Source: Deltaproteobacteria bacterium (GTDB lineage: Bacteria; Desulfobacterota; Desulfovibrionia; Desulfovibrionales; Desulfovibrionaceae). Taken from it: DNA of 55,249 nt. Position 1 is the first letter of the stretch; each line of letters begins with the position of its first letter. The DNA is taken from contig SAAX01000009.1 in assembly GCA_009929215.1 (NCBI GenBank), positions 1-55,249 on the forward strand. The letters run 5' to 3'. This document shows positions 21,534 through 27,264 of the stretch, in pieces. The translations under genes were made by a program, and so were the position numbers. The notes beneath the pieces are model-generated. The model saw only the letters and a program-made list of their open reading frames with translations, ran no database searches and was not told the DNA's origin.

Positions 21534-21965
21534 TTACTGCTTTTTGGCAGCTTCGCGGGCGCTGGCAGCCATGTGGCAGGGGCGGCAGCCCTTGAACTTG
21601 GCTCCGTACTTGGCGGGATTTTCCTGCGCCTTTTGCGAGTGACAGCCGTAGCACGAACGGTCGCCGTTCTTGGAGTGGAAGGCCATGAACATGCTCATGG
21701 AGTCACGTTCACGCGCGCCGGGGGTGGCGTGACATTCGGTACAGGCAACGTAACGATTGTCACCGCTCATTTCGTGGTGGCAGTGCATGCAGTTGATGCC
21801 TTTATGCGCCGTATGGGGAAACATAACACTCATGCGAGGGGATGTGCCACCAGGGATCTCAATGGGCTTTTTGATGACCTGCGACATTTCCTTGATATCA
21901 CGCGCCTGCGCCGCGCCAGCACACACCAGGCTCAACGCAAGCAGCAACAAGGTCACATATTTCAT
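21534..21965 (-). CDS. fdhC: Tetraheme cytochrome c of the formate dehydrogenase cluster (FdhABC3 type)
   Basis: This 143-residue periplasmic cytochrome has a signal peptide (about residues 1-21, ending AQA) and four CXXCH motifs at C59, C75, C105 and C127, all of the plain CXXCH type. Histidines upstream (H51, H54, H64 and H97) can serve as axial ligands. Its place after fdhE in the same strand matches the cytochrome subunit of the D. desulfuricans type formate dehydrogenase, which passes electrons from FdhAB to the cytochrome pool. A GGAGGA site stands before the ATG. A 249-bp gap separates it from fdhE. Other c3-like cytochromes could look similar, so the subunit role is inferred from position. 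Confidence 0.82.
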   Translation of the reverse strand: MKYVTLLLLALSLVCAGAAQARDIKEMSQVIKKPIEIPGGTSPRMSVMFPHTAHKGINCMHCHHEMSGDNRYVACTECHATPGARERDSMSMFMAFHSKNGDRSCYGCHSQKAQENPAKYGAKFKGCRPCHMAASAREAAKKQ

Positions 21966-22214: not shown

Positions 22215-23168
22215 CTAAAACATATTCCAAAACGAAGGTTTGACCGGTTTGAGCTTTCTGCGGGCCGCCACCATATCCAGATGCATCATGCCAAGGGCCA
22301 ACGCATCAAGATTTGGAACAAATTCGCGCTCTCGCAAATCTACAGCCGGGCAGTACGACTTGCACTTGGTGCACCAATCGAGCCGTTCACCGTGGGCAGC
22401 CATGCCGCTTTCGCGCAACAGCTCCATAACGCCGCTGCCTTCTTCGCCGCATGCGGGGCACGCGCCGCGCCGATACTTCCAGTCTGCGCCACATGTGCCG
22501 CAGTGCAGGTGTTTTTTACCACCACCGCCAGCAAGAAAGGCATTTTTTTCATCAATGGAGGGCTTGTCCATCCAGCCCATTGTGGGCAGCGCGCCGCACA
22601 TGGGGCAATAGCCCTGCCGCCACACATCGCCCACTTCCCACGGGGCTTCATCGCCCGCCGCCACCACAAGCGCAGTCAGCGCACGCAATACGGGTGCGAC
22701 AATAAATCCTGCCACAAAGTGCAGCACCAGTGGGTCGACATCAATTTTTTCGGCCAGCCCTTCAAGCGATTTTTTGTTGCCTGAGGCAACGGCGACCACA
22801 AGCTCTTCAGCCTGTTGCGCGTCAGCCTTGTCAGATTTCAAAAAAAAGCCTTCAAGAGCCTCCTTGTACGGAACCACGGCATCCATACGGCACAGCAGGG
22901 GCAACAGTTTTTCTGCGCTTGTGAGCACCGCCGGGGCAAATCCGGCAAAGGAGGCTCCCGCCAGCAGCGAAACACCCTGATCCATTCGTTCTGGCTGGCC
23001 CTGAGGCAATGCCATGCCCTGCTTTTTCAGGCTTTCAGTCAGCTCGTCAACAAGGTCTTCCTGCTTAGTGAGCAGCGGCTCAAAAGAGCGCAATACCGGC
23101 GCAAGCACAGGACGCCAGGTAATAACCTCTTCAAGGGTTTGGGCAACGGTTTGCCTTGTAGCAGCCAT
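22215..23168 (-). CDS. fdhE: Formate dehydrogenase accessory protein FdhE
   Basis: FdhE is a cytoplasmic rubredoxin-like assembly factor needed for active periplasmic formate dehydrogenase. This 317-residue protein has four CXXC pairs in its C-terminal half: CPMC, CGTC, CPAC and CTKC. These match the metal-binding knuckles of the family. The N-terminal half is helical. It stands between fdhB and the tetraheme cytochrome gene on the same strand. The 348-bp gap to fdhB holds a strong hairpin, which may separate or tune its expression. Confidence 0.93.
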   Translation of the reverse strand: MAATRQTVAQTLEEVITWRPVLAPVLRSFEPLLTKQEDLVDELTESLKKQGMALPQGQPERMDQGVSLLAGASFAGFAPAVLTSAEKLLPLLCRMDAVVPYKEALEGFFLKSDKADAQQAEELVVAVASGNKKSLEGLAEKIDVDPLVLHFVAGFIVAPVLRALTALVVAAGDEAPWEVGDVWRQGYCPMCGALPTMGWMDKPSIDEKNAFLAGGGGKKHLHCGTCGADWKYRRGACPACGEEGSGVMELLRESGMAAHGERLDWCTKCKSYCPAVDLREREFVPNLDALALGMMHLDMVAARRKLKPVKPSFWNMF

Positions 23169-23516: not shown

Positions 23517-24176
23517 CTACATAAAGGCGGCGTGTTCGTAGTAATGTTCTTTTTCTTCTGCCAGCAGGTAGATAACGCTCACATCCTGAACGTCTGCCAA
23601 AAATGCCTTGGGGAAGGTTTTTTTGACAACTTCAAGGCGCTTTTTGGCCATGGGCAGAATTTCTTCCCTTTCGCCAAAGGCCATGGTTCCCGTGGGGCAT
23701 GTTTTGACGCAGATGGGCAGCATGCCAGCATTCACGCGGTCAATACACATGTCGCACTTGGTCAGGCGCTTGGTCTTGGGATCAAGACGGGGAATGTTGT
23801 ATGGGCAGGCGTCAATGACAGCCTGTGCGTCTTGCGGGCTCAGCTTGGCGCTTTTTTCGGTGATGATAACCATACCGGTTTTGGCGTCCTTGATGATGGC
23901 CCCGGGCACTGCCATGTCGGCCACATCCTTGCAGATGGGCGTGAGGCAGTGGCGGCACTGGTCGGGAAAGAAGTTCCATACAACCGTGCCATCGGGCTTC
24001 ATGCGCTCGCGAAAACGAACAATTTTAAGATTGTTGGGGTTCAGATCCGGCGGATTCTGATGTGTGCCGCGCTGCTTGGTTTCATTGGCAGGCAGGTCAT
24101 GCCATTCCTTACAGGCCAACTGGCAGCCCCGGCATGCCGTGCACCGTGTGGTGTCGATCAAAAAAGTCTTCGGCAT
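23517..24176 (-). CDS. fdhB: Formate dehydrogenase iron-sulfur subunit FdhB
   Basis: FdhB carries electrons from the catalytic subunit to the cytochrome. The 219-residue protein has ferredoxin-type cysteine groups: C12-C22 (CTACRGCQLAC), CRHCLTPIC, CDMC with CVKTCP, and a separate CPYNIP, enough for three or four [4Fe-4S] clusters. It lacks a signal peptide and would be exported with FdhA, which has the twin-arginine signal. The ATG at 24176 has an AAGGAG site 8 bp upstream; a longer frame to 24200 is not preferred. fdhA ends 49 bp upstream. Confidence 0.95.
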   Translation of the reverse strand: MPKTFLIDTTRCTACRGCQLACKEWHDLPANETKQRGTHQNPPDLNPNNLKIVRFRERMKPDGTVVWNFFPDQCRHCLTPICKDVADMAVPGAIIKDAKTGMVIITEKSAKLSPQDAQAVIDACPYNIPRLDPKTKRLTKCDMCIDRVNAGMLPICVKTCPTGTMAFGEREEILPMAKKRLEVVKKTFPKAFLADVQDVSVIYLLAEEKEHYYEHAAFM

Positions 24177-24225
24177 AGCAATGCTCCTTGGCGGGCGCAC
24201 TCCCAGGTGGAGTGCGCCCGGCGTG

Positions 24226-27200
24226 TTAGCCTATTTCGGTCAGCTTATCAGCCTTGCGCAGATTGACGCAGCAGGCCTTGGATTCAGGAATGGTGGTGTT
24301 GGGATCATAGGCCCCAACGGTCAGCCTGTTGGTGGAGTCGCCGCACTTGGGCGTTGTCCAGCCAAAGGCAAAGGGCATACCCACAAGATGGATTGTTCTG
24401 CCCATAACCGTGAAGGGACGAATGCGCACCGTCACCATGGCGATGGCCTCGCATGTGCCGCGAATGCTCTCAAGAAGGACGCCGTCGCCGTTCTTGATGC
24501 CCTTTTCCTTGGCCAGTTCCGGGCTCATTTCTACATAGAGCTGCGGTTCGGTTTCAAGCAGGTTGGGCACATTGCGCGTTTCACCGCCGCCGCACCAGTG
24601 TTCGGTGAGGCTGTAGGTGGTCAGCACATAGGGGTAGTTGGGGTCAGCCGGTGCGGCAATCTTGTCCATATCAGAGGTATGGAATTTGTACACCGGGCTG
24701 CTCAGCTGTTTGGAGAAGGGGTGGCTTGCCAAAGGCGTTTCCGCAGGCTCGTAGTGCTCGGGGAAAGGCCCGTCGGCAGGGCCAGGGCCAAAGAACTGGG
24801 CATGACCGTCCTTTACCATGATAAAGGGCAGTTTGCCGCCTTCGTTGGCCAAGGGCGGCCAGGGGCCGTCGGGCACGTCGCCCACCCACTTGGTTCCGTC
24901 CCATTCAATAACGGCCTTCTTGGGGTTGAAGGGCTTGCCGTTCACGTCCACAGAGGCGCGGTTATACAGAATGCGGCGGTTCACCGGCCAGCACCACGAC
25001 CAGTTGGGGAACAGGCCAATGTTGGCCTGCATAGGCGTTTGGCTGGTGTTGCGGCGTTTGGACTTGTTGCCTTCTTCTTCTGTCCAGCTGCCAGCGTATA
25101 CCCAGTTGAGCGACGAGGTTGTGCCATCGTCCTTCAGCACGCCAAAGGTCGGCACAAGCTGGCCTCGCTTGTACTGCTTGTCGCCCACCTTGGCATCGGC
25201 CCAGAACAAACCGTTGATACGACGGCTCCATTCTGCGGCGTCAAACTTGTCCGTCCAGTTCATCTTGAGGATGGGATCGGGCAAAGCACCGCCTTCGGCC
25301 TTGTACATTTCGCGCAGCTTGTTGAACAGGGGCACAACGATATCGGCAAAGTGACGAGCTTCGCCGCCGGGCTTAACGCCCTGATCAAACCACTGCAACC
25401 AGCGCCCGCTGTTGCTGATCGTGCCTTCTTTTTCAATGCGGTGGGCCGAGGGCAGCAAGAACACTTCAGTCTTGCAGGCCTTGGGATCCACGCCAGGACG
25501 TTTCCAGTTGTCTGTGGTTTCCGAATTATGCAGTTCGGAACACACAAGCCAGTCCAGCTTGTCCAGCGCGGCGCGCATCTTGTTGGTGTTTGGGAAGCTG
25601 TTCAGCGGGTTTACGCCAAAGATGAAGCCGCCGCGCATCTTGCCCTGATAGACCTTGTCCATGGCAAACATGTACGAGCAGTCTTCGTTTGGTTCCAGCT
25701 TGGGCAGCAGGCTGTAGCAGAATTCATTTTCTGGGGTGGCCTCGTCACCAAACCAGCCCTTGAGCAGGCTTGCAACATACTTGGGCCGGTTGCTCCACCA
25801 GTTGGCGCTGTTGGCCAGTTTGGTCGCAGGCGTATTGGCCTTGTTGTACTCGGCCAGGGTCTGCCACGGAGCGCGCGGAATGGAATTGTAACCAGGAATG
25901 ATATGATACAGCAACGCATGATCTGTGGAACCCTGCACGTTGGGTTCGCCGCGCAGGGCGTTGATACCGCCGCCAGCCACGCCAATATTGCCCAGCAAAA
26001 GCTGGATCAGCGTAGATGTGCGGATGTTCTGCACGCCCACGGTGTGCTGTGTCCAGCCCAGAGCATACAGAATGGTACCGGCCTTGTCCGGCGTGCCGGT
26101 GGCGCAAAATGCCTTGTAGACCTTGAGCAGATTTTCCTGCGAAACGCCCGTAATGTCAGAAACATTCTTGAGCGTGTAGCGGGAATAATGCTGGCGCATC
26201 ATATTGATGACGCAGCGCTCGTTCTTAAAGGTGGGGTCGATGGCAGGCGCACCATCAGCCCCGGTTTCCAGCGCCCACGACTTTTTGTCGTAGGTGCGTG
26301 TGACCGGATCATAGCCGCTGAAAAGGCCATCGTTAAAAGAGTAATCCTTGCCCACCACAAAGGCGGCGTTAGTGTACTTTTCAACGTATTCCTTATGATA
26401 CAGCTTGTTTTCCAGAATGTAACTGACCATACCGCCCAGGAAGGGAATATCCGTACCCGAGCGCAAAGGCACATGGAAGTCGCACCGGGCAGACGTGCGC
26501 GAGAACTTGGGGTCAACGTGCATAAGCACGGCCCCGTTGTCCTTGGCCCGCATAATCCACTTAAAGGCGACAGGATGATGTTCAGCGGCATTACTGCCGA
26601 TAATAAGCACTGCATCGCTATTCTTGATATCGATCCAGTGGTTCGTCATAGCACCGCGTCCGAACGACTCTGCCAGAGCCGCAACAGTGGGGCTGTGTCA
26701 GACCCGTGCCTGGTGGTCCATATGGACAACACCCAGGCCGCGCATGGCTTGATGGATAACGGCGCATTCCTCGTTGGAGGCGTGCGAGGTTCCCATCCAG
26801 AAGATGGTATCAAGACGGTTGACCGTCTGCCCCTTGGCATTCTTGAGAATAAAATCTTTGTCGCGGGTGTCTTTTACCCGGCGGGCGATCTGGGCGAGGG
26901 TCCAATCCCAGTCTTTTTCTACCCAGTGATCGCTGTTGGGCGCGCGGTAAAGCGGCTTTTTCAGACGGTGATCATTGGTGTACATGCTGAAAAGAGCCGC
27001 GCCCTTGGCGCAGAGCGCGCCTTCGTTGACAGGAAAATCGGGGTCGCCTTCTGTCGAAACAAGCTTGCCGTCACGCACATAGGCGATGACCTGGCAGCAT
27101 ACCGAGCAGAACGGACAGACGCTGATAACTTCCTTGGCGCCTTCAATTTTGAGTTTTACGGCGTAAGCCTGGGCCTCGCCCAGGTCGAAGCCCAACTGCC

Positions 27201-27264
27201 CCAATGAGAGGCAGAGAACCCCTGCACCGACGCCCTTGAGGAAACTCCTCCGGGTGCTCTTCAT
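24226..27264 (-). CDS. fdhA: Selenocysteine formate dehydrogenase catalytic subunit FdhA
   Basis: FdhA oxidises formate to CO2 in the periplasm at a molybdenum or tungsten bis-MGD site. The gene spans an in-frame TGA (26698-26700) at codon 189, read as selenocysteine; the flanking HQARV-U-HSPTVAALAESFGRGAMTNHW is the classic active site, with the conserved His after Sec. Read through, the protein is 1012 residues, normal for the family. It has a twin-arginine signal (TRRSFLK, residues 4-10) and a [4Fe-4S] motif at C50, C53, C57 and C85. An AAGGAG site precedes the ATG. No selenocysteine machinery gene is in the window. Confidence 0.95.
26655..26700 (-). promoter_or_regulatory. Selenocysteine UGA codon with candidate bacterial SECIS
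   Basis: The UGA at 26700-26698 is followed in the mRNA by a short hairpin: UUGC (17-20 nt counted from the U of UGA) pairs with GCAG (28-31), leaving the loop GGCUCUG. Spacing and loop resemble the SECIS of E. coli fdnG and fdhF. The hairpin is short, so pairing should be checked by folding. Confidence 0.6.

Follow-up and report, generated by a model that had tools for sequence, protein, structure and literature searches.

Among bacterial selenoproteins, no family is more widely distributed than formate dehydrogenase (PMC13188914). The enzymes from Desulfovibrio are studied as CO2 reducers, and one type among them, FdhABC3, consists of a selenocysteine (Sec)-containing alpha subunit, an iron-sulfur beta subunit and a tetraheme cytochrome c (PMC13397495). 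The motif listed for the Sec-containing alpha subunit is UHxP, and the published limits for the bacterial SECIS element (bSECIS) are a loop of 3-9 nt with a G in the first two loop positions, a stem of 4-16 bp, a spacing of 16-37 nt from the UGA and an MFE of -7.5 kcal/mol or lower (PMC13188914).

The window analysed here, a stretch of 55,249 nucleotides on contig SAAX01000009.1 of a Deltaproteobacteria bacterium, carries an fdhA gene interrupted by a TGA codon. There is hardly any doubt that this TGA represents a canonical Sec-encoding UGA in the fdhA of a periplasmic FdhABC3-type Desulfovibrio formate dehydrogenase. The features of the locus are compiled in Table 1.

Table 1 Features of the fdhA locus, with positions in the window
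Feature	Position	Strand	Evidence
Class III tetraheme cytochrome c, likely third subunit	21534..21965	-	PF02085, 68 bits; four CxxCH motifs
Divergent fdhE-like accessory gene	22215..23168	-	TIGR01562, E 1.8e-7, 31 bits against a cut-off of 187.65
fdhB, iron-sulfur electron-transfer subunit	23517..24179	-	PF13247, 126 bits; best NCBIfam match FDH-beta, below its cut-off
fdhA, catalytic subunit of FdhABC3-type formate dehydrogenase, 1012 aa, predicted Sec189, twin-arginine leader	24226..27264	-	TIGR01553; D. vulgaris FdhA structures; read-through frame; conserved Fe-S Cys, His and Arg
bSECIS hairpin: 8-bp stem (26664-26671 with 26675-26682), GGC loop (26672-26674), short lower stem (26660-26662 with 26685-26687)	26660..26687	-	MFE fold; synonymous constraint; pair counts; recoding control; same shape in selD
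In-frame TGA, predicted selenocysteine codon 189	26698..26700	-	TGA in 104/113 relatives, TGC/TGT in nine; alignment to the D. vulgaris active-site position

Reading frame and active site of FdhA

The gene fdhA opens with an ATG at 27264 and runs as a single frame on the minus strand to the stop at 24226. The TGA at codon 189 is its sole internal stop, and once it is read as Sec no further stop occurs before the terminal one. Standard ORF calling splits the gene into two pieces, 26698-27264 (188 aa) and 24226-26649 (807 aa), exactly as described in an earlier sequence-only reading of the window, which had also claimed a frame intact on both sides of the TGA and had given the active-site peptide of the read-through product as HQARV-U-HSPTVAALAESFGRG. 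Every checkable prediction of that reading held, and its interpretation as a selenocysteine gene is supported.

The read-through protein has the features of a Sec-containing formate dehydrogenase alpha subunit, namely a TIGR01553 score above the cut-off, the UHxP motif with a UGA codon, and the four Fe-S cysteines together with the conserved histidine and arginine. The alignment to TIGR01553 (formate dehydrogenase-N alpha) spans the entire protein (residues 4-1004) and scores 1289.2 bits against a cut-off of 814.2. The best solved relatives are the Sec-containing FdhA of D. vulgaris, followed by the enzyme of M. gigas (PDB 1H0H) and by FdnG of Escherichia coli (PDB 1KQF). Residues 189-192 read UHSP and align with the Sec site of D. 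vulgaris; the TGA occupies the position of the Sec/Cys metal ligand, the family active-site position to which it had been assigned from the sequence. The Fe-S cysteines C50, C53, C57 and C85, the histidine following Sec (H190), the active-site arginine R438 and the twin-arginine pair are kept in nearly all relatives.

Could the TGA act as a true stop, fdhA being a pseudogene or two genes? The split made by a plain ORF caller and an ATG at 26649, near the second piece, would fit such a case. However, conservation is equal in the two halves among the more than 100 relatives that share the TGA, this codon forms part of the active-site motif, and protein-level conservation extends through the 16 codons that separate it from the ATG at 26649, which leaves a genuine stop with a negligible probability. 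Reading the codon as Sec spares fdhA from annotation as two genes.

Antisense to nearly all of fdhA, the plus strand contains an open frame of 1047 aa (24064-27207). A Pfam search with this frame gave no match; it was not accepted as a gene and is probably a shadow of codon bias.

Codon usage at the selenocysteine position

The relatives comprised a second assembly of the same genus, loci labelled Desulfovibrio, Nitratidesulfovibrio and Bilophila, members of other orders and one Spirochaetes MAG. Across the 113 that were aligned, the codon in the Sec column was TGA (104), TGC (7) or TGT (2), Cys codons being the only alternative. The second assembly of the genus carries TGA in an fdhA of 94% identity, and the locus labelled D. 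desulfuricans shows 93% identity.

These data bear on a sequencing or assembly error that turned a cysteine codon into TGA, one of the two cases that the sequence-only reading had named as its own refutation. A single base separates TGC or TGT from TGA, and there are homologues with Cys, including one encoded by the same genome. Yet independent assemblies of the genus and the family, and also of other orders, share the TGA, which already refutes an error; moreover, the SECIS-specific synonymous pattern described below is present here and missing from the Cys genes. An error is thus improbable in the extreme.

Since a quick tree required four changes of the Sec/Cys label, the Cys versions of fdhA probably arose more than once, in agreement with the Sec-to-Cys replacements reported for FdhA (PMC1794560). 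The genome itself encodes a second FdhA (L017, contig C5:2587-5613) that is 62% identical to the first, has TGC at the Sec position, is devoid of the SECIS-like codon pattern and adjoins a separate pair of fdhB and fdhE-like genes. A single genome thus harbours both a Sec and a Cys isoenzyme. In further loci (L072, L112, L119, and L092 with L113 on one contig), Sec and Cys fdhA genes lie adjacent to each other, an arrangement that suggests a selenium-dependent choice of isoenzyme.

Selenocysteine machinery

The sequence-only reading had expected selA, selB, selC and selD outside the window. The genome contains the bacterial Sec-decoding gene set: selA (586 bits), selB (657 aa, profile match over the cut-off), selD (317 bits) and a tRNA-Sec with the anticodon TCA (74.5 bits).

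Low-level near-cognate read-through of UGA occurs in bacteria. This general phenomenon, and nothing specific to the locus, speaks for the UGA being read by suppression or by reassignment to an amino acid other than Sec. Against it stand the complete Sec machinery, the alignment of the site solely with Cys in other relatives and a SECIS-type hairpin under selection, so that we consider such a decoding very improbable.

Selenocysteine insertion is almost certainly what this codon serves, a textbook case that is ordinary for the enzyme family. By analogy with the family, SelB with GTP and Sec-tRNA-Sec would recognize the hairpin with the GGC triloop that follows the UGA, and selenocysteine would be delivered at codon 189 in place of termination. 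The selenium would then coordinate the metal of the Mo/W-bisMGD active site, and the electrons of formate would exit via FdhB and the tetraheme cytochrome, the three proteins presumably forming one formate-oxidizing enzyme.

The hairpin downstream of the UGA

The SECIS-like hairpin that had been proposed after the UGA is present. It has a spacing of 23 nt from the UGA and an energy of -9.1 kcal/mol (-12.0 kcal/mol with the lower stem), and lies within the bSECIS limits for loop, stem, loop G, spacing and energy. The folding energy is ordinary: over 49 nt it differs little from that of dinucleotide shuffles (z 0.18), and under synonymous recoding of the whole 54-nt piece 72% of the variants were as stable. 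Fold energy by itself proves nothing for a SECIS element; the argument is based on conservation.

In 101 TGA genes, synonymous identity at codons +6 to +11 (GCG GCT CTG GCA GAG TCG), counted from the TGA, amounts to 0.96-1.00, compared with an average of 0.54 over the whole gene. The eleven top ten-codon windows (0.75-0.86) all overlap this stretch; the best ten-codon window elsewhere in fdhA reaches 0.75. The synonymous sites of the hairpin are hence nearly frozen in the TGA genes, whereas the nine Cys genes vary across the same codons (0.28 at the Leu codon) and have lost several stem pairs. Among the 70 distinct TGA sequences, the basal stem pair is intact in 54 and each of the other seven in 69 or more, with a loop of GGC, GGG or, once, GUC. 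When the same peptide was recoded synonymously, all eight pairs appeared in 2 of 5000 recodings, and an equally stable local hairpin in 1%. The stem is too invariant for a classical covariation analysis. The SECIS hairpin is real, and its sequence is under selection.

We also considered a register like that of E. coli, with a loop of six bases, and discarded it, as the two pairs in its middle form in only 12 and 18 of the 70 distinct sequences. An Rfam scan of the window returned no family at gathering scores. The SECIS 21-mer, searched genome-wide with three mismatches allowed, occurred once; the sequence is therefore not common to other genes of this genome. In two Mailhella loci (L070 and L117), the common element after the fdhA TGA is swapped for a hairpin of E. 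coli-type appearance (UGCC-AGGUCU-GGCA).

The selD gene of the same genome (L010:1306-2454, minus strand, contig C178) has an in-frame TGA of its own at codon 12. The RNA following this UGA forms an 8-bp stem with a GGC triloop at a spacing of 20 nt, the stem sequence being unrelated to that of fdhA. A GGA, GGC or GGU triloop at spacing 20 was the best hairpin in 26 of the 28 selD UGA contexts of the family, a count that leaves out two further matches that were not selD. Hence it is the shape and not the sequence that recurs across the two genes. We tentatively raise the possibility, itself rather unlikely, that one SECIS architecture is common to the selenoprotein mRNAs of the whole Desulfovibrionaceae lineage: a stem of about 8 bp capped by a GGN triloop, at a spacing of 20-23 nt from the UGA, with a sequence that in fdhA is nearly frozen across several orders. 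The local SelB would then recognize this element in another way than the SelB of E. coli does. Any novelty would be confined to the uniformity and to a possible SelB specificity, the shape already being within the published bSECIS model. The conserved SECIS could guide the choice of host or SelB partner for producing Desulfovibrio formate dehydrogenases; existing knowledge of selenocysteine and formate metabolism is unchanged by the finding.

Gene neighbourhood

The genes for FdhA, FdhB and a tetraheme cytochrome c lie together, as in an FdhABC3 cluster. Of 80 related loci, 78 have fdhB next after fdhA and 71 contain an fdhE-like gene, the order fdhA-fdhB-fdhE being common to most of them. A related cytochrome was found in 27 of the 80, many of these loci ending before that point. 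Upstream of fdhA are located a TetR-type regulator and a nucleotidyltransferase-like gene, followed by molybdenum-cofactor genes (an FmdE/MoCF fusion and a MobA-like gene).

Comparison with known formate dehydrogenases

The gene set corresponds to that of FdhABC3 from Desulfovibrio desulfuricans and Nitratidesulfovibrio vulgaris Hildenborough; FdhABC3 has no solved structure to compare with. The alpha subunit of FdhAB from N. vulgaris Hildenborough (PDB 6SDR and others) matches over the whole length, with Sec at the aligned site, but that enzyme is devoid of a cytochrome subunit, in contrast to our locus. Its Met405 and the redox-switch pair C845/C872 correspond to Leu402, Thr843 and Ala873 in the present FdhA, and nearly all relatives in the aligned set lack them as well. 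On account of these replacements, this type of FdhA probably lacks the redox switch of D. vulgaris.

In E. coli, fdhF and fdnG likewise have their UGA at the active site, followed directly by a hairpin within the coding region, and the FdnG protein (PDB 1KQF) is homologous to the present FdhA over the whole length. The six-base-loop register of the E. coli SECIS is, however, unsupported by the variants found here, which instead support a GGN triloop on an 8-bp stem.
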